Virus record (IMG/VR): IMGVR_UViG_3300025071_000006 | Location: 51,479 to 115,478 of that record | Length of the DNA: 64,000 nucleotides | Source: a virus | Strand: one strand, 5' to 3' | Shown here: positions 44,601 through 63,347 of the stretch, piece after piece | How positions within the stretch are numbered: position 1 is the stretch's first letter | Layout: every line of letters starts with the position of its first letter | Translations under genes and position numbers: made by a program | Notes under the pieces: model-generated | What the model was told of the DNA's origin: nothing | The model's database searches: none | Seen by the model: the letters and a program-made list of their open reading frames with translations, nothing else

Positions 44601-46466
44601 TTTAAGAATCAAATACTTTATATTCAACAAATGAATAAATATAAGTATATGCAAGAGATCGAAGGGCAAATTAATCTAGTTAGAACAATAGTAAAAACAA
44701 AAGGTCACTTTAAAACTGGAGCGTTTTCTAAGGTGGTTACTAAAGGGGGAGAACCTATTGTAGAAAAAAATAATGAAACTAATTCTAAGATTTTTGATCT
44801 ATTCATGGAACAAATTATGTATGATAATTCATTCCCTGCAGACAGTGAAGATTTTGGAGTACCTACAGGTAGAATAAGATCAGGAATAAATTCTGTTTGG
44901 AAGCAGATGACAGGTAAACCTTTGTTTGATGTAAATGATAAAGGAACTAACTATTCTATTATCAAAAGTATGCAAGCTTTAAATAATGCTTTTCAAATGA
45001 AAACATTAGGACTAGAACCTATCTCTGGTGCTGTAAATATATTTGGTGCAAACATTCAAATAGCAACACAAGCAGGTACCTACTTTAATTTTAGAGAGTA
45101 CGTTAAAAATGAATTAAAAGTTTTAGGAAATTGGAGTAGAAAGAAAGGTGGTGTAGAAACAAAACAAATGAAAGCTTTCGATCAATTGACTGATTTGTTT
45201 ATGCCCCTTAAGGATAGTCCTACATACGAGAAGTTAAAGAAGGCCGGTATAAATCTAGGTGCAAGGTTAGACTCTGAGTTAGGTGATACTTTGTTTGCAT
45301 TTTTTAGACAACCAGAATTAGTTTTAGAAAGAGGATTGTTTATGACTCTTCTAGATAACTCAATGATTGTAGATGGAAAGATAGTAAATATACCTGAGTT
45401 TGTAAGAAATAAATATAAAGGTAGGTATGATAGTGCTGCATCTTTTAGTGCAGTTAAAGGTAATATACAATCTGAAATAGAAGATCTTAAAAAGAACAAG
45501 TCTATAACTAGTACTGCTAAAATAGGAGAGAATGGTAAGGTAGAAGTACCAGGTTTAGATCTAAATAATAGAAAAGAACTACAACGTCTTACAGACCTTA
45601 CAAGAACTTTAGCTAGAAATGCTACAGGTGGTTTTACAGAATTTGATAGTATTAAAATGAACATGAACATTTGGACTAAGTCTATGATGGTGTTCAAAGG
45701 TTGGATACCTAAACTTGTTGATACACGTTTTAGTGAATTCAGAAAAGTAGGAGATGACTTTAATGTAAGAGTTGATGAAAATGGATTAATTACTGGAGAG
45801 AAATATGATATAGGTAGAGTAAGATTACTTTATGGTTTTTTAGCTAGTGAAGGAATTAAGTCTGTAAAAGCTATAACTGATGTACTAATGGTGAATGATG
45901 CTGGTTTAGATACATTAGATAAAAAGTTTGAATATTATTCTAACTATTATAAAGAAACAACCGGTGAAGATTTAAACATGTCTAAAGAAGATTTTATAGA
46001 TATGGTAAGAGTTAACCTTAGAAAACAATTACAAGAACTTCTATTGGTAATAGGATTAAACTTAATGTTGTTTGCAGTAGGGTTTATGGAACCAGATGAT
46101 GATGATGATAGAGCTGCAAGAAACTGGTTCTACTTTAAAGAAAAAACTCTTAGAAGATTTCAACAAGAACTTATGTTCTTTTATAATCCATCAGAATGGA
46201 GTGCTACCCTTGAAGGTGGAATATTCCCTTCTATCTCATTACTAGGAGAGATCGGTAGATTCTTTACACAATCAACTAAAGAGATTACTGGACTTGATTA
46301 TAGTAATCCAAATAAATCTGCTGAGGATGTAAGAAGAGATGCATCACCTGTAAAATATGGTATGAAGTTACTACCTGTAACTAAATCTTTAGTACAATGG
46401 TTGTCAATATTTGACATTGGTTTCGCTGAAGAATTTGATGTAACCATTAATGCACGTCCAAGATAA
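41610..46466 (+). CDS. Giant cargo-type protein with PD-(D/E)XK nuclease domain
   Basis: 1618 residues, 3 bp after the polymerase gene. The N-terminal ~150 residues are helical with an EELVHIATE motif. Residues ~370-475 carry a PD-(D/E)XK nuclease core of the RecB/Cas4 type: Glu403 (SEMMIY), Asp418 (AGTIDLLIVD), Asp432-Lys434 (YDWKF) and a QxxxY motif (Gln456-Tyr460, QLGTYKKIL). The rest is mostly long helices. A hydrophobic stretch (~1473-1495, LQELLLVIGLNLMLFAVGF) followed by a DDDDD run lies near the C-terminus and could insert in a membrane. crAss-like phages are known to encode a PD-(D/E)XK protein near the polymerase. Degradation of host DNA on entry or DNA processing is possible; the substrate is unknown. 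Confidence 0.75.
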   Translation: MALCPNINSPEWKQLVAAQGKAKAYFLWNEYSGDVPGQEYTGVLKVESLAPKVKELIAKMGVSIVDLQAYAKSNPEIDLTGAESLADAVGKIIAISKGATEIVITEELVHIATEIINQKNPTLITEMISKIGRFKIYKDTLEQYRIIPAYQLPDGRPNIRKIKKEAVDKLITQLVSTEINGETVKNTEELLEEENASIIRRIWNSITDWFNGQYAASNLDIFQTAASQVTEGVEGDLIDGTPTELYYSVTNVQKIIQKELLETQKTLRSVPVIKKNSNPLLEDEVSNEYEVLINGEWVKNPKRVTDRTKAWYNSKFRDKKPFTKEQERDNELKKQLGIEFHNYFEEIHSRYFNEDGTRREFPSPRPVIQDAKKAVVYAKLETYYTDLIAEFSRDGKTPLVFSEMMIYDPKAKEAGTIDLLIVDEDGKSHIYDWKFMNIAKSAKDVAWYKQGAFDIQLGTYKKILKNNYGVKEVGKNRAIPISMELQRENFQNPKSPLRFTGIAIGSVNPTEIEPLTITPVSEKTESTGDEKLDELIIKLNAVYSQIEKTTPTKEEERVSKRERLNILKLAIRQAQANENVRYVIDALAVIQTEGENIISEYKTLYEGRPAQSTDFENAQLSDFSSRMVEYMNSSSAFIKINVELEPILAGSDISDEQKLAIQTDLDKKIRLLNTNISNIAKISGEFTDKFVGLRNNVTGLLDPQALLRGLKSTFRSLSELPLPSLRILSRLARIAQSKGQAESLTDVNKLLEIRDKLKTTGRNLLDVVKPLYQKDEKGSIVNRLIYKFSKDFYDSVEDNAQEGNRSRKWLYDNIDIEAYKKEANEILRKTLAGYNSLYDDVELRDKYIKEAKQKWDITRTDFNGFSNYVIKRHPLAKWESAEFVKIKKDQDLLDLYNFIEEMNTKAKDMGYLQNRIASTFLPYVRKGTAESLAWDSGLSVITNWTNSLTRRTDDLGYGSVNEITGETESAIPKYYTSDFSRTEDPQVNDMTDVSLEFFKNQILYIQQMNKYKYMQEIEGQINLVRTIVKTKGHFKTGAFSKVVTKGGEPIVEKNNETNSKIFDLFMEQIMYDNSFPADSEDFGVPTGRIRSGINSVWKQMTGKPLFDVNDKGTNYSIIKSMQALNNAFQMKTLGLEPISGAVNIFGANIQIATQAGTYFNFREYVKNELKVLGNWSRKKGGVETKQMKAFDQLTDLFMPLKDSPTYEKLKKAGINLGARLDSELGDTLFAFFRQPELVLERGLFMTLLDNSMIVDGKIVNIPEFVRNKYKGRYDSAASFSAVKGNIQSEIEDLKKNKSITSTAKIGENGKVEVPGLDLNNRKELQRLTDLTRTLARNATGGFTEFDSIKMNMNIWTKSMMVFKGWIPKLVDTRFSEFRKVGDDFNVRVDENGLITGEKYDIGRVRLLYGFLASEGIKSVKAITDVLMVNDAGLDTLDKKFEYYSNYYKETTGEDLNMSKEDFIDMVRVNLRKQLQELLLVIGLNLMLFAVGFMEPDDDDDRAARNWFYFKEKTLRRFQQELMFFYNPSEWSATLEGGIFPSISLLGEIGRFFTQSTKEITGLDYSNPNKSAEDVRRDASPVKYGMKLLPVTKSLVQWLSIFDIGFAEEFDVTINARPR

Positions 46467-46547: not shown

Positions 46548-46943
46548 ATGAGAACCGCTGAAATTTGCCCCACATGTGCTGTACTGCAAAATGCAGAATG
46601 CATTATATATAATGGTATTTACTTAGCTAACGCAGTAATAAATCCTGGAGATAATCTAGAAAATATACTAGGAAGTATTAATGTACATTTAGTACCTTCT
46701 TTTAACACTTCTACACCTGTTAGTCCTGCACCTTATGTAGGAAAGATACATGTAGATCAGACTGCTACAAGTGGTCAGGTTTACATAGCTAATTTATCAG
46801 GATCAGCTTCAGATTGGGAAGTAGTTTTAACTGTACCTATAACAGGACCACCAGAACATGCTAATAATGCAGCAGCTTTATTTGCCGGTATGACCATTGG
46901 AGGATTATACAGAACAGGAGACTTCCTAAAAATAGTACATTAA
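46548..46943 (+). CDS. Small anchor-module virion protein
   Basis: 131 residues. It opens with AEICPTCAVLQNAECIIYNG and PGDNLENILGSINVHL, the same Cys/Tyr/Gly-Asp pattern as the N-termini of the collar fibre at 2478 and the giant fibre immediately downstream. Residues ~55-131 form a short beta-rich segment (GKIHVDQTATSGQVYIANL). It may cap or join the giant fibre to the tail. It is 16 bp from the giant fibre start, so the two are almost certainly co-expressed. The function is inferred. Confidence 0.7.
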   Translation: MRTAEICPTCAVLQNAECIIYNGIYLANAVINPGDNLENILGSINVHLVPSFNTSTPVSPAPYVGKIHVDQTATSGQVYIANLSGSASDWEVVLTVPITGPPEHANNAAALFAGMTIGGLYRTGDFLKIVH

Positions 46944-46959
46944 ATATATCTAAAATAAG

Positions 46960-49900
46960 ATGAGCAACAATAGTAACAAATTAGTTTGTGCAGCTGATCC
47001 TTGTCCCATAAAACTTAGCAGTAAGTGTGTGTTTTATGAGGGTGGAGATCTGATATGTGCTAAAGTGACCACAAATATGACTGTAGAGGAAGCTCTACAA
47101 AGGATCAATGATCAGTTATGTATTGGAAGAGGATTAGATGGAACTAGTGGAACTTCTGGTTCATCTGGTACTTCTGGTACTACTGGTACATCTGGTACAA
47201 GTGGCACATCAGGAACTTCTGGTACTTCTGGTACTAGTGGAAGTGCTGGAACTAGTGGCTCATCTGCTACATCTGGTACTACAGGAACTTCAGGAACTTC
47301 TGGCTCTAGTGGTACTGCTGGTTCATCTGGAATACAAGGAGATAAATATAAGACATGTATTACAGGAACATCATTTACATTAGGTAATACTGTAAATGAA
47401 TGTTTAACTGTTGACACTGGTTTAGCTTATACTCCAGGTCAATCTATTGTTATTGCTCATGATGTAAACAACTATCAAGAGTGTGATGTTGTATCTTATA
47501 ATTTAACAACAGGAGAATTATGTTTTACCATACCCTTTAATGTCGTAGGATCAGGTACTTACACTACATGGTGTATTAACTTAGATGGTGCTACAGGTGG
47601 TGACGGATCAAGTGGTTCAAGTGGTACCTCTGGTACTGCAGGATCTTCAGGTACTACTGGAACAAGTGGTAGTAGTGGAAGTACAGGAACTTCTGGGACA
47701 TCAGGTACAAGTGCAACTTCTGGAACTAGTGGAACGACTGGTACATCAGGTTCCTCTGGGACATCTGGTAGTGCAGGAACTACTGGAACTTCAGGTAGTG
47801 CAGGAACTAGTGGTGCAGATGGATCATCAGGTGCTGCTATAGCAAACTGGTATGCTTCATTTTCTTCTAATCAAGATCATGTTCTTCCTGGTGCAAACGT
47901 TCCTACTGCTGCAACTTATAATAGTACAGATCTTGATAATGGTATAGTGTTAGATGCTTTACAACAAATTAGATTTGTACATAGTGGTATATATAAAGTT
48001 TCTTATTCTGCTCAAGTCCGAAATGGAGGATCATCTAGTGCAGCAGTTGACATATGGTTAATGAAGAATGGGACAGATATTATACGTAAAGATAGAATAA
48101 AAGATCTATCACCTTCTGAGGTTAAGTACATGCCTTCTGCAGATTACATCTTAACGATAGATGTAGGAGACTATATAGAGATTTTCTTTGCATCTAGTAA
48201 TGTAAATGTAGAACTTTTTGCTACAGCTTCTCAAACCCTACCTTTTCAAAAACCTGCAGCTCCATCTATTGTAGTTAATGTACATCAAATAGGAGTATCA
48301 GTAGGAAGTACTTCAGGTACAACAGGAACATCAGGTACGACTGGAACTTCTGGAACCTCTGGAACAAAAGGAACAAGTGGAACTAGTGGTAGTTCAGGTA
48401 TAGATGGAACATCTGGAACTTCTGGTACATCAGGTACATCAGGGACTTCTGGTTCTAGTGGTACAGGAGGAACCTCTGGTACTTCTGGATCTTCTGGTGC
48501 ATCGTGTTTAAGTTATAACTTATCTTGCCCTAGCGGTGGTGGAGATTGTGATGTAGACTACTTAGACTGTGCTAACATATCTAAAACTATTACGGTCCCA
48601 GAAGGAACTGCAATAGATGAGTGTGCTAAATCAATTCCTACAAGTAGTACAGCTAACATAGGAATAAACGGAATATGTTCTGGCTCTAGTGGTACAAGTG
48701 GTTCTTCTGGAACTGCAGGTAGCAGTGGTACATCAGGTACATCTGGAACATCTGCAGCAGATGGATCAAGTGGTAGTTCTGGTACTTCAGGAAGTAGTGG
48801 CACTAGTGGTACATCAGCAGAAGATGGAACATCAGGAACTAGCGGTACCTCTGGTACATCTGGAGAGGATGGTACATCTGGTAGTAGTGGATCGTCAGGT
48901 ACAGCAGGTACTTCAGGGTCTAGTGCAACAAGTGGTACAGCTGGAACATCCGGTACAAGTGGTAGTTCTGGTCTTACTGGATCAGACGGAAGTAGTGGAA
49001 CTAGTGGATCATCAGGTACATCTGGTACAACAGGTATTGATGGAACAAGTGGTACAACTGGGACCTCTGGTACATCAGGTTCTAGTGGTGATGATGGAAC
49101 AAGTGGTACATCTGGAACAAGTGGTTCGAGTGGAGAAGATGGTACTTCTGGATCTAGTGGCACTGCAGGGTCTAGTGGCTCTAGTGGTGAAACAGGTAGC
49201 TCTGGAACAGCTGGAACAAGTGGTACTAGTGGTACAACCGGTATAGACGGTACAAGTGGATCTAGTGGATCTAGTGGAGACAGTGGAAGCTCAGGTACAA
49301 GTGGTACGTCAGGGAGTAGTGGATCTTCAGGAGACTCTGGCAGTTCAGGAAGCAGTGGTACATCTGGCACGAGTGGTTCTAGTGGTAATACTGGTTCTAG
49401 TGGAACTAGTGGTACGTCTGGAAGTTCTGGTACAGCAGGTACATCTGGAGCTGATGGTAGTTTTGGTGGTGCATGTTTCGATTATACATTCTCAACTAAT
49501 GTTCCTAGTCCTGCAGCAGATCCTGGTCAAGGTAAAGTAGAGTTAAATAATGCTACACAAACATCAGCTACTAGCTTATATATAAGTGAGACAGATGATG
49601 ATGGTAACAGTATACAATCTTTCCTAGAAAGTATTGATGCATCTACATCAGCAATAAAAGGACACGTAAGATTAGCAGACAAAGATGATTCATCTGACTT
49701 TATATTATATGCAATAGATGAATTAACTGATAATGGATCTTGGTGGACATTAGTAATAATAAATGAATCTCAAGGTGGTAATCCTCTTACTAACCTAGAA
49801 GATATTACAGCATGTTTTGTATTAACAGGAGATAAAGGAGATCCAGGTGTGGACGGAACATCTGGAAGCTCAGGAACATCTGGTACGTCTGGAAGCTCAG

Positions 49901-52900
49901 GTGATAGTGGAAGTAGTGGTTCAAGTGGAACAGCTGGTACAAGTGGCACAAGTGCAGAAGATGGAACATCTGGTACGGCTGGTACTAGTGGTAGTTCTGG
50001 AACAACTGGTACATCAGGGACTAGTGGAACAACAGGAGTAGATGGTACATCAGGTACAAGTGGTAGTAGTGGAACCTCTGGTAGTAGTGGAGAAACAGGA
50101 ACAAGTGGAACTAGTGGAACTAGTGGAAGCTCTGGTGAGGATGGTACAAGTGGGTCTTCTGGTACAGCTGGAAGTAGTGGTTCATCAGGAACCACAGGTA
50201 CTTCAGGTACTAGTGGTACGTCTGGAGAAGATGGTGGTGATGGGACAAGTGGAACTAGTGGAACAAGTGGTACTAGTGGTACGACAGGTTCAGATGGAAC
50301 ATCTGGTACATCAGGTAGTAGTGGTGATACTGGCACTTCTGGTACTTCTGGAACATCTGGTTCTTCAGGAACTAGTGGTACATCAGGTGATGATGGAACT
50401 AGTGGTACTTCTGGAACAACAGGTACATCAGGTACAAGTGCAACTTCTGGTACAAGTGGTAGTTCTGGAGAAGACGGAACCTCTGGTACTGCTGGTACAA
50501 CAGGAACATCTGGAACTAGTGGTAGTTCAGGATCTAGTGGTAGCTCAGGGTCTAGTGGTGACGATGGTACTTCAGGTACTTCAGGAACCTCTGGTACAAG
50601 TGGTACAACAGGTTTAGATGGAACCTCTGGTACAAGTGGATCTTCAGGAGATGATGGTACAAGTGGTACGGCTGGAACAACAGGTACAAGTGGTACATCT
50701 GGTAGCTCTGGCAGTTCTGGAGATGATGGTACATCTGGTACTTCTGGTAGTACAGGTACGTCAGGTACATCAGGTAGTTCTGGAGATGATGGAACTAGTG
50801 GAACAAGTGGAACAAGTGGGACAACAGGAACAAGTGGAACAACAGGTACGAGTGGAACAACAGGTACATCAGGGAGTTCTGGATCTTCAGGAAACGATGG
50901 AGGAGATGGAACATCAGGTACTTCAGGAACCAGTGGTTCTTCTGGTACAGCTGGTTCAAGTGGACAAGATGGTTCCTTTGGTGGAGCATGTTTTGATTAC
51001 ACATTTGATATTTCAACAGCAGCATCGGATCCAGGAACAGGTAAAGTAAGATTAAATAATGCTAACGATCAAGCTAATGCATCTAAATCTTACATAGATA
51101 TAAATGATGATAATGGTGACTCTATTAATTCATTTTTACAATCAATAGATGCATCTTCAAATGCAGTAAAAGGTCATATTAGAATTTCTGATAAATTTGA
51201 TGCAAGTGATTTTATATTATTTGCTATATCAGATTTAACTAACAATAGTGGGTGGTGGACATTAGATATAGATGTTGTAGCTTCTTCCACAGGTACAGGA
51301 GTAATTTTCCCTAACGCTGAAGATGTACTTGTATGTTTTGTAACTACTGGTGATAAAGGTGATCCTGGAACTTCAGGAACAACTGGAACCTCAGGAACTT
51401 CAGGAACCTCAGGTGGTGATGGAGGAGATGGAACTTCAGGTACCTCAGGATCAAGTGGAGATGATGGAACAAGTGGTTCTAGTGGTAGTAGTGGAACTTC
51501 ACCAGCAAGTCAAGTTACAGGCTCTGGAACAACTAATAAGGTTGCAAGATGGTCAACTGCCAGTTCTTTAGGTAATGGTCCAATAACATTTGCTGATGCT
51601 ACAGCTACAGCTGGATCAACTTTTGGAGGAGATGTAACAATTAATGGTGCTGAGTATGTTAATCAAATACAAGCTAGAACCTCAGCAGGTCTTAAATTAG
51701 GAAACGATAATAATAGTGGTTTTGTATTTGTAAAAGATTCAGGAGAAGTTTGTGTTGGAACTGAAACACCATCTTATAACAACAATTATGGAACAGGAGA
51801 TTTAAATGTAGAAAACAACACCTTTGCATCTGCTCAAGTTTTTTCGCATAGTAGTACTGTAGGAAACTACTCATTTTTAGGATTAGGTAAAAGTAGTGGA
51901 ACAGGAGCAAGTCCAACAATAGTTGTTGCACAAGAAACTGTAGGTGCAATAGGATATTATGGTTACGATGGTTCTGATTACAGAAGATTAGCAACTATTT
52001 CTGCTGCTGTTGATGGAACACCTGGAGCAGGAGATATGCCAGGAAGATTAGAATTCTGGACAACTGCTGATGGAGCTACATCTCCTACAAAAAGATTAAC
52101 TATAGGTCAAGCTGGAAACGCAATTTTTACAGGAAAAGTAACAGCACAATCAACAGCATCAAATACAGTAGGAGCTTTTGCTTTTGTTACTGGTGGAAAT
52201 GATGTAGGAATTAGAGAAGATACTTCTGGTGGATTTAATATAGATGTATATAAACCAGGAACTGGGTATATTAACCCCTTAACTATAGACAGTTCAGGAA
52301 ACTCAACTTTTACAGGTAGAGTTACTGCTGTTGGTTTTACATCTACGTCAAGTAATGCATATACTGGCGGAATGTCTTCTTTTGAAACAACTCTTACAAA
52401 TGGAAATGACTGGGCAAACTCACCTATAAGCATATTAGAAAGAGGGAATATTGGTTCTGGTTCTACAGATGATAAATACTCACCTAATTTAAACTTTCAC
52501 TGGAGTGGTAGAGTATCTAACTCACTTTGGATGAGCGACAATGGGCATTTAAACTGGGGTTCGTATACAAGTTTAGGAGTACCAGCTACTGATGGAGTTT
52601 TTAGAACTAAAGAAATTAACTTAATAGGTACAGGTAGAATTACAGGCGTTGATACAGTATCAGCAAGTACTGATGCGGCAAACAAAGCTTATGTAGATGC
52701 TCACGTTTCACCCCCTGGAACATACTTACCACTAGCTGGTGGGACAATGACTGGAACTACTGGTGTTACAATGCCAGATAGTTTTCCATTATTTCTTGGT
52801 ACTAGTGGAATTAATGATTCACAAATATTCTGGGATGGTGATAATATAGAAATACAAGCAAGAAAAGCTAACGCAGATATTGTTTTTAGAGCAGCTAACA

Positions 52901-55900
52901 GTTCAAGTGTTTTAGGAGAGTTTTTAGCTATAGATGGTGGCATTGGAAAAACTAGAGCATATAAAGATATTCATTTTCAAGATAATGTAAAAGCTAGTTT
53001 TGGAGACACTACAACACCAGACCTTCAAATATACCACAGTAGTAGTAATGATAGAGGTTATATTTATAACGCAACAGGAGATTTATATATAGAAAATGAT
53101 GCTGATGGAAAAGATATTAAATTTTGGAGTGATGATGGTAGTGGTGGAACAACTGAATTTTTTAAAGTTGACTCAGCATCACAAGCAGTTACATTTGTCA
53201 AACCTGCATATTTGCCTGATAATGTAAAAGCACAATTTGGTAATTCTTCTGACCTTAAAATATATCACGACGTTACTACAAATGCAAATATAATAGAATC
53301 AGTTAATAGTAGGCAATTACAAATAACACAAGATAACCTTTTTATAGGTTCTCAAGGTGCTACTGAATCATTTATAACTGCTGTAGCTAATGGAGCAGTA
53401 AGTTTATATTACGACAATGTTAAAAAGTTTGAAACTACAAGTACAGGGGCTAGTGTATCAGGTAGTCTAGTTGTTGGAGACAATGCATTTGTCAAAGCTG
53501 GGCAACTTTATTTTAATACTGACAATAGCACCACGAATGACACCTATAGAATGTACTCAGCTAGTGGTGAGTTCTATTTACAATCAAGAGAAGCAGGAAC
53601 ATGGAAGAATTTTATATCAACTGACACTGGTGGAGATACAACTTTTGCTCAACAAGCATTCAGTGGAGCTACATCTACTTCAGATCCATCATCCACTCTA
53701 ACAACAAAAGGTTATGTAGATGGTTTAATCACTGGAGCTACAATATATAGAGGAACTTGGGATCCAAGTGGTGGTGGATATGGTTCACCTGATTTAAGTG
53801 GTGTAACACAGACTTCTGGTTATTATTATATATGTAGTGCTGATGGTACGGCAGAGCCAAATGGAACAGGTACAGAACCTGATTCTTGGAGTGTAGGCGA
53901 TTGGGTTATATGGAATGACGATGTTGGAGCTGGTGAATGGCAAAAAATAGATAACTCATCTGTATTATCAGGTGTTGGTACAGGTCAAACTGTAGCTTTA
54001 TGGCAAGGTGCTGGTTCTGTTACAGATTCAGAAACTTTAGGTAACGCACCAATAACAGTTAGTGGTAATAACGCAACTTTTGCAGGAAATGTTTTAATTG
54101 GCACAGGCAAAGAATTAATTATTGGAAGTCAAACTACAGCAGAAAGTCCATTAGGAATTACAATTAGAGATAATCAGGGAGATGCTCCTGTTGGAATAGT
54201 TATACATAATGAAAATACAGGTACTTTAGCAGATGCACAAATAGCATTTGAAACTCAGGGTGCTCTGGATTTTTCAATAGGAATTGATAGAAGTGATTCT
54301 AACAAATTTGTAATGTCTAGAGCAGGTACTTTAGGAACAAATAATGTATTTACTATTGATGCAACAAGTGCAACTTTTGCAGGAGATATAATTGTTCCAA
54401 ATGGTAAAATTTCTACAATAGGTGGTAACAATTTAACTCTCTCAGGAAGTGTAGCTGACCACGCAGGAATAAGTTTTGCAACAAAGTCTATTTTACCTTG
54501 TGTTGTTTCAGCAACAAACGATAATGTCGTAGATTTAGGGCAAAATGGAAATGTATTTAAAAACCTTTATTTAGGTAGTGAAATAATATCAGGAGGAGGA
54601 GCAACTTTTGCAGGTAGCGTTGATATAAGAGGTTCTGGGTATAATCAAATAAGAATAGCAAACCAAATTGCAGCATCTACAAACAAGCAATCAGGGATTA
54701 CAACTTTAAATTACGAAGGAAACAGCGTAAGTATCTTTCAAACGTTTCAGCAACCCAATAACAATACTATTTATTTTGGTAGTGCTGACGCTTCTCACTC
54801 AGGAATACAAAATTATAGATTTTATGTAAACGCTGATTCTAATACTCCAGGAAGTGGGCATACGCAAGCTTTACTTATTCAGAGTAACACAAACGCAACT
54901 TTTGCAGGAGATGTAGGTTTAGGTGGAACAGGACTATATACAAATTCACATTCTTTAAATATTGATGGAACTGGATTAGCAATTAAAAATGATACAAATG
55001 GCTCAAATAATAATTGGAGTACAATTAAAAACACAGCTACCAGTAGTGGGTCAAACTTTGTATTTAATACATCCACGGGTATTATGGTTATGGATAGTTT
55101 TGGTAATCTTGGTGTCGGTGATGCTTTACCAACTTCTATATCAGCAAACACGTTTAGCCTATCTGTAAATTCATCAAGAAATGATTTGACGGGTGCATTA
55201 ATAAGTAAAGCTAATGGAACTGTAAAACATCAGCAATATTGGGATTCAAGTGGATATAGTTTTAACTTGACAGCTGGTCAAGGAAATTTTCAATTCAACG
55301 TTAATGCAGCAGGAAATAATGTAATATCAACTTTTAAAAATGCAAATACTACATCTGGAAATAGAAGTGCAATAAAAGTTGTACAACAAGTTAATTCTAC
55401 TGGTAGTTTTTCAGCGTTTTTAGGTTCTACAATAGATGGAAAATTATTCTTATCAAATGATAGTATTACTGCTAATCATTTATTAATAGATACATCAGGA
55501 AACGCAACTTTTGCAGGTTCAGTAACTGCCACTTCTTTTTCTTCTTCAGGAGGTGCAACTTTTAATCCTATGGCTACTATAGAATATAGTGATATTAGCA
55601 CAGGAGAAAATAGAGGTTTAAGAATAATTAATACATCAGGAACTGATCAACAATGGAATATTACAGCAGGAGTTACAGGATCAGAGAATGAATCTTTTTG
55701 TATTAGAGATGCAACAGGCAATGTGAATGCACTTACTATGGCTATATCAAGTGGTAACGCAATTTTTTCAGGAAGTGTAACAGCCGAAGGTATAAGTTCT
55801 ACTATTAGTTCTGCTACATCAGGATACTTTGCAACAAGTACAGCTATACCTAGCAATCAAATTGTTCATGTTAGAGATAATGTAGCAACTACATCAGTAA

Positions 55901-57795
55901 ATAGTGCAGGTGGAATTAAAATTAGTTCATCACCTGGAAATGATGTTTTTTTAGTAAAAAGAAATGAAACTACTTCAAGTTTTTTTGGTTTACGAAATAG
56001 TTCTGGTACAGAATTTATTACAACTGAAATGGCAGGAGGAAGAACAACTTTTACAAGTGATGCAGGTGTATTAATAAAAGGAGCAAGTGGTTCAACAAGT
56101 GCTAAACTTTCTTTTTTACCAGCAAGTGGTGGAAGGCAATATGACTTAGGTAATGTAGGTGCAGACTTTAGAATATTTGATTCATCTGCCAATATTACTA
56201 GAATGTATTTTGATAATGATAGAAATACAGGAATAAACACAATAACTCCTCGTGGTAGATTAGAAGTTTTTAGAGAAGCAGGAGCATCAAGCATTCCTCA
56301 ATTAGTTTTAGGAACAGGAGAATCAGGAAGTGAAGATTATTCTTTAAGTACAGATGTAACAGCAGCAGGAGATTTTTGTATTGTAAAAGGTGCATCAAAT
56401 ACTGCAGCGAATGTTAGAATGAAAATTGTTAGTTCTGGCAACGTTACAATTGGTGTACCAACAAATGAACCTGGAATATTAAACACTGCTGGACAAGTTT
56501 ATATAGAACATCAAGGTACAGACTGGAATGAAATAACACCAGGAACTACTAGAGGTGCAATACATCTGGATCCAGTAGGAAATGCAGGAGACAATACTGG
56601 TAATGCTATAACTTTTGGATCATCAGATCATAGTGCAGGTACGGTTGCAGACGCTGGTATTTACGTAAGATCAGATGGTGCTTATGGTACTAAAATGTAT
56701 CTTGCTACCACAGATTCTTATGCGGTAGGTTCTAAAACTCGTATGATAATTGACAATACTGGTAAAGTAGGAATTAATAATCCACTAAACTTAACTGTTG
56801 TGGCACCAGATGCTTTATTAACTGTCGATGGTACAGCAAGAGTGAAGGATCAATTATTTTTTGGTGATACTGTTAATACAACATACGGACCTTTTATAGA
56901 AAGCTATGATGATAAAAGTTTAAAGTTTGATTATAATGGTAATAATGGTGGAATATTTGTAGTTTGGAATCACGATCAAAATGGAGGTGGTGCAACACAG
57001 ACCTTTACTATAGATCAAGACAATGACATTAAAACAGCTGGTTATATTGAAGCATCAGGACAAGTTAGAGCTACAACAGATAAAGCAACACCAGACTTTG
57101 CTTTTAAAGGTGATACAGATACTGGAGTAATACAATATGGAGGTACTGCTAATCATATAGGTTTTATGAATGGAGGTATTGATACTCTTAACGTAGCTTC
57201 AACTGGTAAACTGCAACTTAATAAGTACACCGCGACAGCAGTATCATCATCAGGTAATTCTTTAAATCCTATTCAAAATTTTCAAGCTGCATCTCAAGAT
57301 ACATTAGCAACTTTAGCTGTTGCACCGAATGGTCAGGTTGTAAGAGGATCACAAGAAGGAACTTGGACATTTACTAAAGCTCAATTAGATGCACTTACAA
57401 CAACTGTAACTGCTGGTGCTACTCTTATACAAGCTCCTGGAGCAGACAACGTTGTTATTGTAGAAGAATCTAACTGGATGATAAAATATAGTGGCACAGG
57501 TACTATGTCTTCTAATGGTTTTGAAATAAGACAAGCTAATAACGCTTCTACTAGTGCAGGTATATCAAGAATACCTTCTGGTAAGATAAACGAAATAATG
57601 AATTCTGCACCTACAAATCCAAGTTATGGATTTTATTCAAGAGATTTACCTCAGTACAATAATGATGGAAGGTCATTTGTTTGTAATAAAATAACATATT
57701 TAAATAGAATAAATACAAACGCATTACCAAGTAATTTAATTAGCATTACTATAAAGCTAAAATACAGAGTATTTAACACTACTACTTTTGACTAA
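46960..57795 (+). CDS. Giant collagen-like tail fibre
   Basis: 3611 residues. Order: Cys-rich anchor module (1-60; KCVFYEGGDLIC); six collagen-like segments with Gly at every third place and mostly Ser/Thr between (about 900 residues in all); between them a short beta module, a C1q/TNF-like jelly roll (~292-448; NGIVLDALQQIRFVHSGIY, VGDYIEIFF), a ~58-residue Cys module, and two copies of a ~125-residue domain starting FGGACFDYTF. The last ~2100 residues form a repetitive shaft with about ten NATFAG/NAIFTG-V repeats and two NVKA-FG ... LKIYH motifs common in marine phage fibres. There is no S74 intramolecular chaperone. The end (LPSNLISITIKLKYRVFNTT) overlaps the minus-strand gene by 14 bp. 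It is probably a long trimeric receptor-binding fibre. Confidence 0.85.
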   Translation: MSNNSNKLVCAADPCPIKLSSKCVFYEGGDLICAKVTTNMTVEEALQRINDQLCIGRGLDGTSGTSGSSGTSGTTGTSGTSGTSGTSGTSGTSGSAGTSGSSATSGTTGTSGTSGSSGTAGSSGIQGDKYKTCITGTSFTLGNTVNECLTVDTGLAYTPGQSIVIAHDVNNYQECDVVSYNLTTGELCFTIPFNVVGSGTYTTWCINLDGATGGDGSSGSSGTSGTAGSSGTTGTSGSSGSTGTSGTSGTSATSGTSGTTGTSGSSGTSGSAGTTGTSGSAGTSGADGSSGAAIANWYASFSSNQDHVLPGANVPTAATYNSTDLDNGIVLDALQQIRFVHSGIYKVSYSAQVRNGGSSSAAVDIWLMKNGTDIIRKDRIKDLSPSEVKYMPSADYILTIDVGDYIEIFFASSNVNVELFATASQTLPFQKPAAPSIVVNVHQIGVSVGSTSGTTGTSGTTGTSGTSGTKGTSGTSGSSGIDGTSGTSGTSGTSGTSGSSGTGGTSGTSGSSGASCLSYNLSCPSGGGDCDVDYLDCANISKTITVPEGTAIDECAKSIPTSSTANIGINGICSGSSGTSGSSGTAGSSGTSGTSGTSAADGSSGSSGTSGSSGTSGTSAEDGTSGTSGTSGTSGEDGTSGSSGSSGTAGTSGSSATSGTAGTSGTSGSSGLTGSDGSSGTSGSSGTSGTTGIDGTSGTTGTSGTSGSSGDDGTSGTSGTSGSSGEDGTSGSSGTAGSSGSSGETGSSGTAGTSGTSGTTGIDGTSGSSGSSGDSGSSGTSGTSGSSGSSGDSGSSGSSGTSGTSGSSGNTGSSGTSGTSGSSGTAGTSGADGSFGGACFDYTFSTNVPSPAADPGQGKVELNNATQTSATSLYISETDDDGNSIQSFLESIDASTSAIKGHVRLADKDDSSDFILYAIDELTDNGSWWTLVIINESQGGNPLTNLEDITACFVLTGDKGDPGVDGTSGSSGTSGTSGSSGDSGSSGSSGTAGTSGTSAEDGTSGTAGTSGSSGTTGTSGTSGTTGVDGTSGTSGSSGTSGSSGETGTSGTSGTSGSSGEDGTSGSSGTAGSSGSSGTTGTSGTSGTSGEDGGDGTSGTSGTSGTSGTTGSDGTSGTSGSSGDTGTSGTSGTSGSSGTSGTSGDDGTSGTSGTTGTSGTSATSGTSGSSGEDGTSGTAGTTGTSGTSGSSGSSGSSGSSGDDGTSGTSGTSGTSGTTGLDGTSGTSGSSGDDGTSGTAGTTGTSGTSGSSGSSGDDGTSGTSGSTGTSGTSGSSGDDGTSGTSGTSGTTGTSGTTGTSGTTGTSGSSGSSGNDGGDGTSGTSGTSGSSGTAGSSGQDGSFGGACFDYTFDISTAASDPGTGKVRLNNANDQANASKSYIDINDDNGDSINSFLQSIDASSNAVKGHIRISDKFDASDFILFAISDLTNNSGWWTLDIDVVASSTGTGVIFPNAEDVLVCFVTTGDKGDPGTSGTTGTSGTSGTSGGDGGDGTSGTSGSSGDDGTSGSSGSSGTSPASQVTGSGTTNKVARWSTASSLGNGPITFADATATAGSTFGGDVTINGAEYVNQIQARTSAGLKLGNDNNSGFVFVKDSGEVCVGTETPSYNNNYGTGDLNVENNTFASAQVFSHSSTVGNYSFLGLGKSSGTGASPTIVVAQETVGAIGYYGYDGSDYRRLATISAAVDGTPGAGDMPGRLEFWTTADGATSPTKRLTIGQAGNAIFTGKVTAQSTASNTVGAFAFVTGGNDVGIREDTSGGFNIDVYKPGTGYINPLTIDSSGNSTFTGRVTAVGFTSTSSNAYTGGMSSFETTLTNGNDWANSPISILERGNIGSGSTDDKYSPNLNFHWSGRVSNSLWMSDNGHLNWGSYTSLGVPATDGVFRTKEINLIGTGRITGVDTVSASTDAANKAYVDAHVSPPGTYLPLAGGTMTGTTGVTMPDSFPLFLGTSGINDSQIFWDGDNIEIQARKANADIVFRAANSSSVLGEFLAIDGGIGKTRAYKDIHFQDNVKASFGDTTTPDLQIYHSSSNDRGYIYNATGDLYIENDADGKDIKFWSDDGSGGTTEFFKVDSASQAVTFVKPAYLPDNVKAQFGNSSDLKIYHDVTTNANIIESVNSRQLQITQDNLFIGSQGATESFITAVANGAVSLYYDNVKKFETTSTGASVSGSLVVGDNAFVKAGQLYFNTDNSTTNDTYRMYSASGEFYLQSREAGTWKNFISTDTGGDTTFAQQAFSGATSTSDPSSTLTTKGYVDGLITGATIYRGTWDPSGGGYGSPDLSGVTQTSGYYYICSADGTAEPNGTGTEPDSWSVGDWVIWNDDVGAGEWQKIDNSSVLSGVGTGQTVALWQGAGSVTDSETLGNAPITVSGNNATFAGNVLIGTGKELIIGSQTTAESPLGITIRDNQGDAPVGIVIHNENTGTLADAQIAFETQGALDFSIGIDRSDSNKFVMSRAGTLGTNNVFTIDATSATFAGDIIVPNGKISTIGGNNLTLSGSVADHAGISFATKSILPCVVSATNDNVVDLGQNGNVFKNLYLGSEIISGGGATFAGSVDIRGSGYNQIRIANQIAASTNKQSGITTLNYEGNSVSIFQTFQQPNNNTIYFGSADASHSGIQNYRFYVNADSNTPGSGHTQALLIQSNTNATFAGDVGLGGTGLYTNSHSLNIDGTGLAIKNDTNGSNNNWSTIKNTATSSGSNFVFNTSTGIMVMDSFGNLGVGDALPTSISANTFSLSVNSSRNDLTGALISKANGTVKHQQYWDSSGYSFNLTAGQGNFQFNVNAAGNNVISTFKNANTTSGNRSAIKVVQQVNSTGSFSAFLGSTIDGKLFLSNDSITANHLLIDTSGNATFAGSVTATSFSSSGGATFNPMATIEYSDISTGENRGLRIINTSGTDQQWNITAGVTGSENESFCIRDATGNVNALTMAISSGNAIFSGSVTAEGISSTISSATSGYFATSTAIPSNQIVHVRDNVATTSVNSAGGIKISSSPGNDVFLVKRNETTSSFFGLRNSSGTEFITTEMAGGRTTFTSDAGVLIKGASGSTSAKLSFLPASGGRQYDLGNVGADFRIFDSSANITRMYFDNDRNTGINTITPRGRLEVFREAGASSIPQLVLGTGESGSEDYSLSTDVTAAGDFCIVKGASNTAANVRMKIVSSGNVTIGVPTNEPGILNTAGQVYIEHQGTDWNEITPGTTRGAIHLDPVGNAGDNTGNAITFGSSDHSAGTVADAGIYVRSDGAYGTKMYLATTDSYAVGSKTRMIIDNTGKVGINNPLNLTVVAPDALLTVDGTARVKDQLFFGDTVNTTYGPFIESYDDKSLKFDYNGNNGGIFVVWNHDQNGGGATQTFTIDQDNDIKTAGYIEASGQVRATTDKATPDFAFKGDTDTGVIQYGGTANHIGFMNGGIDTLNVASTGKLQLNKYTATAVSSSGNSLNPIQNFQAASQDTLATLAVAPNGQVVRGSQEGTWTFTKAQLDALTTTVTAGATLIQAPGADNVVIVEESNWMIKYSGTGTMSSNGFEIRQANNASTSAGISRIPSGKINEIMNSAPTNPSYGFYSRDLPQYNNDGRSFVCNKITYLNRINTNALPSNLISITIKLKYRVFNTTTFD
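47140..47331 (+). repeat. Collagen-like segment 1
   Basis: About 64 residues of GTS/GSS/GTT triplets. Synonymous codons (GGT/GGA, ACN, TCN/AGT) are mixed, so the repeat is a protein-level pattern rather than a perfect DNA repeat. Confidence 0.9.
47590..47832 (+). repeat. Collagen-like segment 2
   Basis: About 80 residues of Gly-Ser/Thr-Ser triplets ending GADGSSG, just before the C1q-like domain. Confidence 0.9.
48304..48503 (+). repeat. Collagen-like segment 3
   Basis: About 66 residues after the C1q-like domain, including GTKGTSG and GIDGTSG charged breaks. Confidence 0.9.
48679..49467 (+). repeat. Collagen-like segment 4
   Basis: About 263 residues. Acidic triplets (GED, GDD, GAD) recur among Ser/Thr triplets. 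The minus strand shows a long Pro/Leu/Val open frame here that is a shadow. Confidence 0.9.
49840..50982 (+). repeat. Collagen-like segment 5
   Basis: The longest segment, about 380 residues. It opens after GDKGDPG, a classical collagen-like triplet run, and ends at GQDGSFGGACF, the start of the second duplicated domain. Confidence 0.9.
51352..51500 (+). repeat. Collagen-like segment 6
   Basis: About 50 residues from GDKGDPGTSG to SSGTSPAS, leading into the long shaft. Confidence 0.9.
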
Positions 57796-60700
57796 GAGGT
57801 AGAAGAGTTTCTATAACTTTTGAAGCAGATATTTTAGTATGACATTCAAACTGTCTATCTGTCCCCTTATGTTCTGGACACCAATCCCAATCACCTTTAT
57901 CAAAGATGAACTTGGGGTTGTTCCAACACCCATGACAGATTGATGTATCTGATACTCTATAGCAGCTAAACTCGTGGTCAGCTTCTGTAAAGTTTGATAT
58001 CATTACAACAGGTGTACCTATAGCCCAAGCTAACCAACTAAGCCCACTAGAAAGTCCTATAAAGAAATCACTTTGTCTTATACAGTCAATTGTATACTCT
58101 ATATCTGTATCTACTATCTTCTCACAATTATCAAAAGGATTATCTTCTTTAGAAGTATTAACTATCATGTAACCTTCACCGTGTAAGTAGTTTATAACTT
58201 CTTGCCATCCTTCTCTTGTCCAAAACTTACAACCAGCTGTAGAATTAGTAGCTATAGTTACATACTTACCTGGAACATTGTAGTTATCTTTCATACCACA
58301 TTTATTCCCAAAGTTATTTGTTATCCTAGGCTTAATTTCTTTATGCTCTAATCCTAATATATCAGATGCTGTCTGCTGTAATGGTATAGTGTGAGGAGGT
58401 GTAGGATGATAGTCAGACTTAGAAAACCAACCAATTAAATACTTAGCATAAATATCACCAGGATCATTTCCAGGTTTTATAAACTCAAGTTCAGGATAAA
58501 CCTCTTCAAACAAAAAGTTCTTAAAAGTACTAATCACTACATTACATTTGTGTTTCTGCTGAAACTCTAAAGCATAAGGAATCCATGCAATAGAATCTCC
58601 TAGTGCTGCACTATCCAATGCAATATGTACTCTTTTATTTTCTAAGTTAATAACTTCATCTAGTATAAGAAGGTTGTCTTTGTAGATTACAGTTCTCCAA
58701 TCAGTGTAATACTTTTTATCTATCTTGGCGTAGTTTCCACTACTCATAGTAGTATCATAAACTAATTTTTGTTTATCATACATCTCTATCCTAAACAAAC
58801 TCTTACTGGCCCCTGTAATATGTATGTAAGGACCTAAAGCAAAGTCACGATATATATTATAGTCTACAGGTTTTATATGTTTAACCTTTTTAGTATTTAA
58901 TACTTTAGTATATAGGTCAACATGATTAGTAGAAAAGCTTGAAAGAACATTGTCTGTAGGTATAATATAATTACAACCATCTCTGAGTAATGTCTTTAAC
59001 TGATTCTTCATCTTCATAGGATCCAAGTCAGTAATATATGAAGTAAACATATCTTCATATTGAGGTAAGTTTCTAGCAAGTATAGGTAGACCGTATCCAA
59101 TAGCTTCTCTAATTACAAGAGGGTTACACTCCCATGTAGAGTTAAACATAAACACATCAGCTGCTTGTAAGAATGTCGCTGTATCATCTCGCTCTCCCCA
59201 TATAGTTACATTGCTTGGAACATTATCCATCAATGGTCCCCAATAATCTTCAAAGTTTCCTGCTTGATTACCTACAAAGTGAAATTCCACACTAGGAAGT
59301 TTTTTAGCTAAGGATAAACCCTCTCCTTGATTTTTACCTCTAGTCCACAGTCCTATATTAAGAACATGTTTTTTATTTGAGTCTAAACCTAAAGCAGACT
59401 GAGCTTGTAACTTGTTAGATACAGTGGGCTCGATAGGAAACTCTATCACTTCCTTGAGTGAAGTTTTCATATCCTTAAACGTAGTTAGGTGATGAGGTGT
59501 ACAAAATGCATATGCATCAGGATGATATTTCTTTTCTGTATCTGGATTAAATGATATATTGTGACAAGTCTCTATTATTCTATAGCTTCTGCAGTTACAA
59601 TATAAATTATCCATTAGTTCTTTATCTCCTAGACTTTCAGACATCTCATCTATGTGCACTATATCTATACGCTCAGAAGATATAATACTCTGAAGCTCAG
59701 TTTTATCTTCACCTAATGTATAGAAGTTATCTACTAATTCTTTAATCTTATTTTTCTGTACTATAAAATCATCACTAAAGTTTCTATGTTCTACTACAGT
59801 GATTGTGTAGTGATCTTTCAAAGCTTGTATTCTTTTTAAAAGAAAGGCAGGCATTCCACCGGTTGATAGATGAGGAGCTAAAAATAATATTCTTTTCTTA
59901 AATTGATCCATAGTATACTTCATAAAGAGTGCACGTTTCTCTCCATGTAAAGCCATAAGTTCTTCTTCTTTCCTAGGTAACCTAGTCCATTCAGCTAAGT
60001 ATTGATCTTCTCCATTAAAAGGTAGTTCACTTACATCTATAGACTTAGTATAGTTTATGTACATGTAAGGTAATCCATCTTGAATATTATACTTCCACAA
60101 CAATACATTAACAAGAGTTTCCTCATGGTAAGGTGCATAGTACTGAGGGTTAGCTTTTACTTTAGGATGATTACACATCCACTCCCACTCATCTAAGAAG
60201 TCCATACATGAGTTCACTGCTACAAAATACCCCGTTTGATGGTATTTCCATCGATTAGATTGATCTACACCGAATAGTTCACAAGCTGGGTGCTCTAAAC
60301 TCTTATGTAATTCTTCTCTAGTTTCTACACCTCCTCTACCGTTTATAAATAGGTAATCATATATACCTTTTGTAAAGTAGGGATGAGATGAGTCGGTAGG
60401 TATGTAATCAAAGATCTTATCTATGTGTGGTGTAACTACAGTATCTGAGTCAATATATGCAACCTTATTACCATAATTATTCAAGGCATGTTTAATGATA
60501 GATGGTCTTTGAATCAAAAGATCATATACTCTACTGTCATTACGATCTATGTACTCTGTCTGCTTAACATCAAATCCTTTATATCCCCATTTAACTGTTT
60601 CAGCTCCTGGTACTTTTCTGTTATCATTTAATAGATATACTACTACAGGAGTATTGGTAACATTATTAATAGACTTAACTGCTTGACACACGGTATCATA

Positions 60701-61246
60701 ATAGGAAGTATTTGCATATAACACATATAAGTTCTCAGCTTTGTTAAGTAAGTAACAATAATATCCATAGTCATTAATTTCTTTTATACATTTAAGTTCT
60801 GGATATCTTTCTCTCATAACTTGAGGGGTAAGATCTACTTGATGGTGAGTTTCATATATATTACCTTCATGTTCTCCTTGTTCCATTTCAAATGGTACAG
60901 CTACTAATATTTCTTTTCCTTGTTCTATAAAACTACTATATAATTTTATGGCATCATCTTTGGGGATATGTTCTAATACATCTCCTAGTATAATAAAATC
61001 ATAGTCTGTTATATCAAATGTACAGATGTCTCCTATAAATACGTTATCATACTTATTTATAAGATCATATTTCTGAATGTAAGGAGGAAAGATCTCTACT
61101 GCATCAATTCTATAGTTTTCATTAACTAATAAATCTGCATAAGTACCTACTCCAGGTCCTACATCTAGAATGCGTAAGTGGTTAGAAACATTGTTTTTGA
61201 ACCATTGTAATAACTCTTCTTTGTAGTAACTAAAACTATAAGGCAT
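57782..61246 (-). CDS. Four-domain glycosylation protein: methyltransferase, GT8-like, GT4 and TibC-like O-glycosyltransferase
   Basis: 1154 residues. (1) ~1-165: class I SAM methyltransferase, DVGPGVGTY at 28-36, then LGDVLEHIP. (2) ~170-430: GT8-like transferase with a metal-binding DSD (VAYIDSDTVV). (3) ~445-790: GT4-like (GT-B) with GG-x-P at its start and an E-x7-E motif (STWECNPLVIREAIGYG). (4) ~840-1154: resembles the autotransporter O-heptosyltransferase family (TibC type): TVIYKDNLLILDEVINL, ALDSAALGDSIAWIPYALEF, FIGLSSGLSWLAWAIGTP, and a CHGCWN ... DWDWC ... QFEC tail giving C-x2-C-x15-C-x11-C, the iron-site pattern of TibC. It is on the opposite strand and overlaps the fibre gene end by 14 bp. 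The start codon is preceded by a strong host-type promoter. It probably builds and caps an O-glycan on Ser; the target (own fibre or host surface protein) is inferred. Confidence 0.8.
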   Translation of the reverse strand: MPYSFSYYKEELLQWFKNNVSNHLRILDVGPGVGTYADLLVNENYRIDAVEIFPPYIQKYDLINKYDNVFIGDICTFDITDYDFIILGDVLEHIPKDDAIKLYSSFIEQGKEILVAVPFEMEQGEHEGNIYETHHQVDLTPQVMRERYPELKCIKEINDYGYYCYLLNKAENLYVLYANTSYYDTVCQAVKSINNVTNTPVVVYLLNDNRKVPGAETVKWGYKGFDVKQTEYIDRNDSRVYDLLIQRPSIIKHALNNYGNKVAYIDSDTVVTPHIDKIFDYIPTDSSHPYFTKGIYDYLFINGRGGVETREELHKSLEHPACELFGVDQSNRWKYHQTGYFVAVNSCMDFLDEWEWMCNHPKVKANPQYYAPYHEETLVNVLLWKYNIQDGLPYMYINYTKSIDVSELPFNGEDQYLAEWTRLPRKEEELMALHGEKRALFMKYTMDQFKKRILFLAPHLSTGGMPAFLLKRIQALKDHYTITVVEHRNFSDDFIVQKNKIKELVDNFYTLGEDKTELQSIISSERIDIVHIDEMSESLGDKELMDNLYCNCRSYRIIETCHNISFNPDTEKKYHPDAYAFCTPHHLTTFKDMKTSLKEVIEFPIEPTVSNKLQAQSALGLDSNKKHVLNIGLWTRGKNQGEGLSLAKKLPSVEFHFVGNQAGNFEDYWGPLMDNVPSNVTIWGERDDTATFLQAADVFMFNSTWECNPLVIREAIGYGLPILARNLPQYEDMFTSYITDLDPMKMKNQLKTLLRDGCNYIIPTDNVLSSFSTNHVDLYTKVLNTKKVKHIKPVDYNIYRDFALGPYIHITGASKSLFRIEMYDKQKLVYDTTMSSGNYAKIDKKYYTDWRTVIYKDNLLILDEVINLENKRVHIALDSAALGDSIAWIPYALEFQQKHKCNVVISTFKNFLFEEVYPELEFIKPGNDPGDIYAKYLIGWFSKSDYHPTPPHTIPLQQTASDILGLEHKEIKPRITNNFGNKCGMKDNYNVPGKYVTIATNSTAGCKFWTREGWQEVINYLHGEGYMIVNTSKEDNPFDNCEKIVDTDIEYTIDCIRQSDFFIGLSSGLSWLAWAIGTPVVMISNFTEADHEFSCYRVSDTSICHGCWNNPKFIFDKGDWDWCPEHKGTDRQFECHTKISASKVIETLLPLSQK

Positions 61247-62150: not shown

Positions 62151-63347
62151 ATGAAAAAAACAATTCTCTTTATAGTAACTGTCCTTATTTCTGTATCTAT
62201 ATCAGGACAAGAAGTAAAAAAGACTTTATTAAAGTCTTTCTATGATGACTTCTTAACGTATGGTACTCTTTATGCTGCTGGAGATGTTTCTAACTCTATT
62301 GAAGCTTCAGAGTCTACTTACTTTGTTAGAACAGGAGAGAACGGAAGCTTATATGATATACCAGTTGTAGTAGATAATACACCTAAATATCTATTCGATT
62401 ATAGAATAGGTATTGGTATAAGAAAACTTGCAAGGTTTAATTATGAAAGAAAACCTAGAAACTATTATGATGGGACAGAAGAGCAACTAGCATTCTCTGC
62501 TCCCACATCTGCTTTTAAAGGATTAGAATATCAAATACATTTTGAGAAAGAAAGATGGAGAGGTGAAGAGTTTCAGAATCATAATTTATTTATAAAACAT
62601 ACTGGAAAAAATCACATTTTTAAAATACAAAGTAGAGAAGTAGATAAGATCGGTTTAAAATTCTTCTCAGTTGAAGCAAGAGCTAGATTACCAATAGGTG
62701 AAAAGTTTTCTGTATCAGCAGGAGTTATAGCAAGAGGTCATGAAAGAGCATATGGTTACAACCCTATTGAAATATGGTTAAACGAGACTGATGAGTTTGA
62801 TAACCCAATTAACCCTTGGTATACTTTAGGATTTCAGTACGGTTACACAGATCATTACACAACTTACACAGATGTTTATAGCGGACAAGAAGTTGGAGAC
62901 TGGATATGGAAAGATGAAAATGGAGAAATAGTAGCTCACACTGATCTTGAGTTTAGAGAGCAAGTATTTACAGAGTTAATGAACAGATACAATCAAGAAA
63001 GATGGAACGGATTAGCTGAGTTTGGTGAGATAGCTCCAATAGTAGGAGCTGACTATTACCACAACAAAGGTAAGTTCTGGCTACATGCTTACGCTAACTA
63101 CATATTACCTTATCATCAGTACATACAAGGTAACAAAAGGATTTCTTACTTAAACAGAAATAATTGGGGTAAAGGTGGTTTACCAAGAGATGCTAAGCCA
63201 GAACAGTGGGAAGATTATTCAGCAGGCTTAAGTGTTGGTTGGAAGTTAAACAAAAGCTTAGGCATATTTGCTGAGGGAGAATATAGTAAAATGTGGGATA
63301 GTGAATTATTTCAAACTACATTTGGCGTAAACTTTACATTTAAATAA
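62151..63347 (+). CDS. Outer-membrane beta-barrel-like protein
   Basis: 398 residues. A clear signal peptide (MKKTILFIVTVLISVSISG, cut before Gln) is followed by alternating amphipathic strands (LFDYRIGIGIRKLARFNYE, FSVEARARLPIG, FSVSAGVIARG, PWYTLGFQYGYT, LSVGWKLNKSLGIFAEGEYS) and a C-terminal strand ending GVNFTFK with an aromatic next to last, as in barrel proteins recognised by BAM. The likely place is the host outer membrane. It is co-directional with the lipoprotein (3 bp gap) and a small membrane protein. I associate similar proteins with uncultured marine Bacteroidota phages, from memory. It may alter permeability or phage receptor access; no enzyme motif is seen. Confidence 0.75.
   Translation: MKKTILFIVTVLISVSISGQEVKKTLLKSFYDDFLTYGTLYAAGDVSNSIEASESTYFVRTGENGSLYDIPVVVDNTPKYLFDYRIGIGIRKLARFNYERKPRNYYDGTEEQLAFSAPTSAFKGLEYQIHFEKERWRGEEFQNHNLFIKHTGKNHIFKIQSREVDKIGLKFFSVEARARLPIGEKFSVSAGVIARGHERAYGYNPIEIWLNETDEFDNPINPWYTLGFQYGYTDHYTTYTDVYSGQEVGDWIWKDENGEIVAHTDLEFREQVFTELMNRYNQERWNGLAEFGEIAPIVGADYYHNKGKFWLHAYANYILPYHQYIQGNKRISYLNRNNWGKGGLPRDAKPEQWEDYSAGLSVGWKLNKSLGIFAEGEYSKMWDSELFQTTFGVNFTFK

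Follow-up and report, generated by a model that had tools for sequence, protein, structure and literature searches.

The window analysed here is the final 64,000 bases of the 115,478-base virus record IMGVR_UViG_3300025071_000006 from IMG/VR, and its subject is a pair of genes meeting tail to tail near the end of that record. Gene P0002 (46960..57795, + strand) encodes a giant collagen-like fibre of 3611 residues, and gene P0001 (57782..61246, − strand) encodes a fused four-domain enzyme of 1154 residues comprising methyltransferase, GT-A, GT4, and TibC-type domains; the two overlap by 14 bp (57782-57795), just as an earlier note on this DNA, made from the letters alone, had stated. By gene content the phage is Crassvirales-like, because its major capsid protein matches PF23898 Crass_capsid (9e-31) and major head (phrog_11589), portal (phrog_6547), and terminase (phrog_6681) families are found in the genome. 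The reading favoured here, with a probability of roughly 0.78, is that the phage encodes, in P0001, an enzyme for protein O-glycosylation that acts on the Pro-free collagen-like fibre of the same phage.

P0002 opens with a Cys-containing domain (residues 1-57; 46960..47130, +) common to the repeat-less fibres of enzyme-less relatives, continues with a Gly-X-Y stretch (residues 58-1514; 47131..51501, +) whose runs are separated by small non-repeat insertions, and ends in a C-terminal part (residues 1515-3611; 51502..57795, +), probably the distal or receptor part, which matches the PHROG tail-fibre family phrog_8745 at residues 2074-2186. Counted in runs of at least six triplets, of which there are 13, the stretch holds 300 Gly-X-Y triplets, or 900 residues, in agreement with the earlier estimate of about 900. 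The commonest triplets are GTS (136), GSS (70), and GTT (22), and Ser or Thr occupies 493 of the 600 X and Y positions (Ser 289, Thr 204), with Pro at two. The longest run comprises 60 triplets, against a maximum of seven in 200 composition-keeping shuffles. Because synonymous codons are mixed within the repeat (GGA/GGT, AGT/TCT/TCA, ACA/ACT), it appears to be kept at the protein level, which argues for selection on the protein rather than recent DNA expansion; a composition or repeat artefact as the source of the triplets is ruled out by the shuffles together with the mixed codons. P0002 matches Pfam Collagen (PF01391) at E = 3.7e-103 as well as PHROG tail-fibre families, the latter partly through the repeats themselves. 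Judged by its composition, the near-absence of Pro makes an unmodified triple helix of P0002 doubtful. The antisense Pro-rich open reading frames (ORFs) at 48558-49370 and 49770-50336 (both −) were rejected as by-products of the repeat.

The TibC-type domain of P0001 (residues 791-1154; 57782..58876, −) is recognised in three comparisons. Against TIGR04414 of NCBIfam, P0001 scores 265.8 bits (E = 5.7e-79), above the equivalog cut-off of 200; phmmer against the PDB relates it to TibC structure 4rap at E = 4.6e-48, and Foldseek aligns the domain with 4rap at a TM score of 0.83 (E = 2.3e-25), with strands at residues 796-865. Both the N-terminal β-barrel and the GT-B core fold of TibC are found in the domain, which also contains the Pfam Glyco_transf_9 match (960-1112) and shows weaker matches to RfaQ and heptosyltransferase I. 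In TibC, Asp-110 acts as base, the β-phosphate is held by Thr-226 and Lys-230, Trp-305 contacts the heptose, Arg-286 contacts the adenine, and Cys-339, 342, 358, and 370 are the iron ligands; the enzyme modifies Ser, not Thr, and Pro-300 directs it to D,D-heptose, while AAH accepts both heptose isomers (PMC4358343). When TibC positions were transferred through the PDB phmmer alignment of P0001 to 4rap, D884, T1003, K1007, and W1071 (TibC Asp-110, Thr-226, Lys-230, and Trp-305) proved present in all 41 aligned enzyme sequences, as did the four cysteines of the iron finger, C1104-x2-C1107-x15-C1123-x11-C1135 (57842..57937, −), which correspond to the four TibC ligands. The previously proposed C-x2-C-x15-C iron pattern is therefore present and invariant, but it had missed the fourth cysteine, C1135. 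The Pro-300 position is Ser in 40 of the 41 sequences, as in AAH. On this conservation, the TibC-type domain looks active.

The remaining domains lie N-terminal to it. An S-adenosylmethionine (SAM) methyltransferase domain (residues 1-165; 60752..61246, −), with the motif LDVGPGVGTY, matches PF13489 at 7.5e-07 (Methyltransf_23, residues 11-95); since it is missing from 16 of the 41 aligned sequences, it is, in sequence terms, a separable module. The GT4 glycosyltransferase (GT) domain (residues 448-790; 58877..59905, −) matches PF13692 at 1.3e-09, above the cut-off, with the Pfam GT4 match at residues 617-756, resembles the MshA fold at 3e-11, and keeps E706 and E714 (E-x7-E), K638, G463, and G464 in 41/41, so that the retaining GT-B fold with E-x7-E that defines GT4 membership is found. 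Between them lies the domain that the earlier note had called GT8-like (residues 166-447; 59906..60751, −). Its D266-S-D268 motif stands, both aspartates being kept in 39/39 sequences having the domain, and its AlphaFold2 model (pLDDT 91.6) has in Foldseek the GT6 blood-group transferases, UGGT, and LgtC as nearest folds (1e-7 to 1e-6); no family profile, GT8 included, significantly matches this domain in P0001, and 3 of 24 domain relatives match the GT8 profile, at best with E = 0.018. The modelled fold is accordingly described as a GT-A fold near GT6/GT24/GT8 (LgtC) enzymes, which makes the earlier label half right. The four-domain reading of the earlier note (methyltransferase, GT4, and TibC-like, with GT-A in second place) holds under structure prediction and hidden Markov model comparison. 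Longer versions of the enzyme, of about 1400-1600 aa and with extra domains, occur in L061, L063, L064, L066, L074, and L032; where the contig continues, they directly adjoin Ser/Thr fibres, the longest of which reaches 2977 aa before the locus ends. A bacterial origin of the fused enzyme was also considered and rejected, as 85,462 genomes yielded a single partial GT4 match in a scan that is insensitive (it needs short exact peptides). This match, L299 (RGEC01000037.1; 51% over 184 aa), lies at the contig end of a Bacteroidetes metagenome-assembled genome and is weakly consistent with a Bacteroidota host.

Two surveys bear on whether enzyme and fibre are linked. In an enzyme-first survey, scanning viral contigs yielded 74 enzyme relatives, which were grouped into 39 clusters at 90% identity. 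A Ser/Thr Gly-X-Y gene lies in the available flank of 28 of the 39 clusters and, in 26 of these 28, it is downstream on the opposite strand, 0-6 kb away. Among the 11 clusters without such a flanking gene, the downstream flank is no longer than 3.2 kb in six, and the whole record of L004 has collagen matches; where enzyme-bearing records of 60 kb or more were searched, all of them gave such matches. An anchor test was carried out as well, in which phages were picked by their capsid protein and by the 1618-aa neighbour gene (41610..46466, +), which is not itself part of the system, and then checked for enzyme and collagen, because an unrelated anchor avoids picking phages by enzyme or fibre. 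A contig was considered informative if it reaches 12 kb past the anchor and, where a Ser/Thr fibre is present, also 6 kb past the fibre; these thresholds were fixed once, after apparent exceptions had proved to be truncated contigs. The fibre-to-enzyme direction was tested within this phage group only, as BLAST masks such repeats.

Enzyme and Ser/Thr fibre occur together in 19 of the 31 informative contigs and are both missing from the other 12, so that none is discordant (Fisher 7e-9, uncorrected for relatedness). On a quick anchor-protein tree with some long branches, each trait changes eight times, independent pairs are concordant in 7/7 (p = 0.0156), and the closest flip places L221, with neither, beside L219 and L230, with both. 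In G097, G103, and G112, which were counted as enzyme-positive, the GT4 and TibC-type parts are split over two genes, which again stand near the fibre. Records of at least 100 kb from the anchor and capsid sampling agree: collagen matches occur in 10/10 with the enzyme or its parts, and the 12 without it have none, one, or two, which are Pro-rich in the three inspected. Candidate cases of a Ser/Thr fibre without enzyme (G052, G054, G055, G061, G071, G078, G080, G084, G087-G089, G098, G106, G111, and G119) were set aside as uninformative because these contigs stop either inside the fibre or no more than about 3.5 kb away from it. Enzyme-less L221, L226, L232, and L272 keep the fibre gene with its N-terminal motif (CPVIL..CVFYEG..) and have no Gly-X-Y, and some enzyme-less phages (L192, L193, L195, L221) carry short Pro-rich GPQG collagen genes elsewhere, with Ser/Thr at 2-7%. 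Because enzyme-less phages keep a repeat-less fibre gene or a Pro-rich collagen, the enzyme is associated with the Pro-free Ser/Thr repeat and not with the fibre gene or collagen as such. The connection that the earlier note had drawn from adjacency and composition is thus supported by the 19/12/0 distribution and the tree pairs, and no informative relative with the fused enzyme has a fibre lacking Ser/Thr repeats.

TibC-type domains are found in four of 50,697 phage records, from three phages, two of which repeat the pairing. In the 735-kb LR756501, 1140-aa and 738-aa glycosyltransferase genes, the latter with the TibC-type domain, adjoin a Ser/Thr Gly-X-Y gene, and LR756501:107772-108029 is a module of the crAss-like fibre (residues 125-208; 46% identity) that sits between collagen blocks in P0002, so that fibre modules seem, from sequence similarity, to be shared between unrelated phages. 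LR756501 carries many collagen genes. In Microcystis phage Mel-JY01 (PP395634), the one isolate found to carry the pair, a Ser/Thr Gly-X-Y frame stands 1.7 kb away from a 1227-aa gene with a TibC-type domain. There (L297:1-2298), a 1016-codon (+) frame reads as Gly-Ser/Thr collagen, and the deposited annotation puts (−) genes in its place; read in antisense, Gly-Ser/Thr repeats give an open, Pro-rich frame by which gene callers may be misled, as with the two antisense ORFs opposite the repeats of P0002.

Genes, domains and folds, conserved active sites, and strict co-occurrence have been observed directly, and from them we infer acceptor residues, sugars, domain order, timing, and benefit; the same standing belongs to what the earlier note proposed on starter, extender, and cap domains, on hexose or heptose as the sugar, and on shielding, stiffness, or receptor tuning as the benefit. 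Glycosylation would most likely take place in the host cytoplasm, before fibre assembly. Within the (Gly-Ser/Thr-Ser/Thr)n blocks, the TibC-type domain would add the first sugar to Ser, given that TibC modifies Ser, and perhaps also to Thr; the GT4 and GT-A domains would extend the glycan, and the methyltransferase, where present, would cap it, leaving an almost Pro-free, densely glycosylated fibre shaft. Bacterial collagens usually depend on Pro and Thr, and glycosylation of BclA, in the view of one review (PMC8968730), would give the triple helix a better hydration network. The nearly Pro-free (GTS)n rod may depend on sugars for its stability; protease shielding and tuning of adsorption are alternatives.

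Several points weigh against a self-glycosylated fibre. The known acceptors of TibC are β-helical autotransporters, and the acceptor proposed for P0001 is collagen-like. The position of TibC Arg-286 is Thr (Thr-1052) in 40 of 41 sequences and Val in one, as placed by alignment rather than in a ligand-bound structure; because this adenine contact is replaced by Thr, ADP-heptose is at most a candidate donor. Co-occurrence is not proof of action either, because the fibre and enzyme genes are physically linked and can travel as a unit, and as neighbours they may be exchanged without acting on one another. The 636-kb LR756504 has a 389-aa TibC-like gene standing alone, and its complete record gives no match to collagen; it is a genuine exception for the TibC-type domain, though not for the fused enzyme; L067, L069, and L072, with separate GT4 and TibC genes, show no collagen match in their 10-36 kb fragments. 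A mere passenger is nevertheless made less likely by the pairing having recurred in unrelated phages and by its tie to composition.

The same adjacency would be expected if the enzyme remodelled host surface polysaccharide or lipopolysaccharide (LPS), for superinfection exclusion or receptor masking, with fibre and enzyme exchanged as one host-interaction module. The kinship of GT9/TibC domains with LPS heptosyltransferases, seen in the weaker RfaQ and heptosyltransferase I matches, fits this explanation, as do sulfotransferase and other GT genes nearby in relatives and the plausibility of joint swapping of fibre and surface-modifying genes; it is nonetheless unlikely, given that the TibC-type domain scores above a cut-off for protein O-heptosyltransferases with its iron finger kept, that the association is with Pro-free Ser/Thr Gly-X-Y composition while the fibre gene persists repeat-less without the enzyme, and that the pairing is repeated in unrelated phages. 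Less probable still is that the enzyme mainly glycosylates another structural protein of the phage, such as the capsid or a Thr-rich stalk, with the Ser/Thr fibre as passenger: capsid and tail tube are glycosylated in a mycobacteriophage (Freeman et al. 2023, as reported in PMC12619734), Thr-rich tracts exist elsewhere in the genome (for example, the ORF at L078:9502), and the TibC-bearing LR756504 goes without collagen, but enzyme and Gly-Ser/Thr fibre agree completely in informative relatives. Phage glycosyltransferases often modify DNA, according to reviews, and glycosylation of hypermodified bases against restriction was considered too; it is very improbable, since no thymidylate-synthase/hydroxymethylase family protein (PF00303) is found in the phage genome, and the enzyme's homology to TibC and its association with Ser/Thr fibres both point elsewhere.

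Self-glycosylation of the fibre allows a bolder and quite tentative extension, which is rather doubtful as a whole: a glycosylation-dependent viral collagen, whose shaft would form a stable triple helix or rod only once X and Y Ser/Thr are glycosylated, the enzyme replacing Pro or hydroxyproline as the stabiliser, with sister phages without enzyme having Pro-rich GPQG collagen or none, and with the glycan sulfated in some lineages by adjacent sulfotransferase and adenosine phosphosulfate (APS)-kinase-like genes.

In the relatives L021, L194, and L034, genes for sulfotransferases, APS-kinase-like proteins, and additional GTs lie between or beside fibre and enzyme, and their presence suggests a glycan that can be further elaborated there, possibly sulfated. 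Sulfotransferase loci are L021:13474-15966, L194:11920-14492, L034:14590-15495, L190:17200-17936, and L192:4569-6758, the calls being Pfam-tested in L021 and L034 and made by eye in L194, L190, and L192, the last of which, however, is enzyme-less; APS-kinase-like, nucleotidyltransferase-like, and GT9-like genes stand beside them in several lineages.

As to the surroundings, the genome is probably complete and circular, because an ORF near the window end (62151-63347) recurs, by eye, at the record start. Between the anchor gene and the fibre lies a 131-aa gene (46548..46943, +) whose start, with the motif CPxxxxLxxxC...YxG, resembles the fibre N-terminus by eye; it is possibly a short paralogue or partner of the fibre. 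A single 4219-aa ORF with a DFDIDK motif fills 28947-41606 of the window and may be the giant virion RNA polymerase protein of crAss-type phages. Other sugar genes of the phage (L076:3565-4584, L076:7173-8598, L077:1587-2459) encode a 339-aa GT-A-like protein (phrog_4417), two GT2-like proteins, and a nucleotide-sugar epimerase; the first (L076:3565-4584) was not counted in the system, similar genes being found in phages with and without the enzyme.

If the proposal is true, widespread environmental crAss-like phages coat part of their fibre apparatus with self-made glycans, with consequences for adsorption, host range, and the annotation of fibres, and the fused enzyme is a one-chain tool to glycosylate simple Gly-Ser/Thr repeats. 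It would also let one test directly if O-glycans are able to stand in for proline in rods of the collagen-like kind. In the open-access literature, no paper was found that connects bacteriophages with TibC-type enzymes or with glycosylated collagen-like fibres. Four known systems come closest. TibC and AAH (bacterial autotransporter heptosyltransferases, BAHT, TIGR04414), which modify Ser of a repetitive surface protein (PMC4358343), share with the P0001 domain the fold, the catalytic Asp, the β-phosphate Thr/Lys, the Trp, and the four-Cys iron finger; P0001 differs in being phage-encoded and fused to GT4, GT-A, and methyltransferase domains, and, from TibC, in Thr at the Arg-286 and AAH-like Ser at the Pro-300 position. 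Because the partner gene is a collagen-like phage fibre and not an autotransporter, the domain is described as TibC-like and is not filed as BAHT. Mimivirus encodes a collagen-like protein and a collagen glycosyltransferase (PMC9546862), but it is a eukaryotic virus relying on hydroxylysine chemistry and different enzymes. In the mycobacteriophage virion, glycans sit on the C-termini of capsid and tail-tube proteins, in the account of Freeman et al. 2023 given by PMC12619734; the use of the phage's own virion proteins as glycan carriers is what is proposed for P0002, whereas here a TibC-type enzyme would target a collagen-like fibre rich in Ser/Thr. In Clostridioides difficile, the gene adjoining collagen-like bclA3 encodes SgtA, which O-glycosylates the Gly-X-Y repeats of BclA3 (PMC7157674); there, as here, a glycosyltransferase gene adjoins a collagen-like gene, but SgtA is an O-linked N-acetylglucosamine transferase acting on Gly-Pro-Thr repeats, while the phage repeats are without Pro and the phage enzyme combines TibC-type, GT4, GT-A, and methyltransferase domains.

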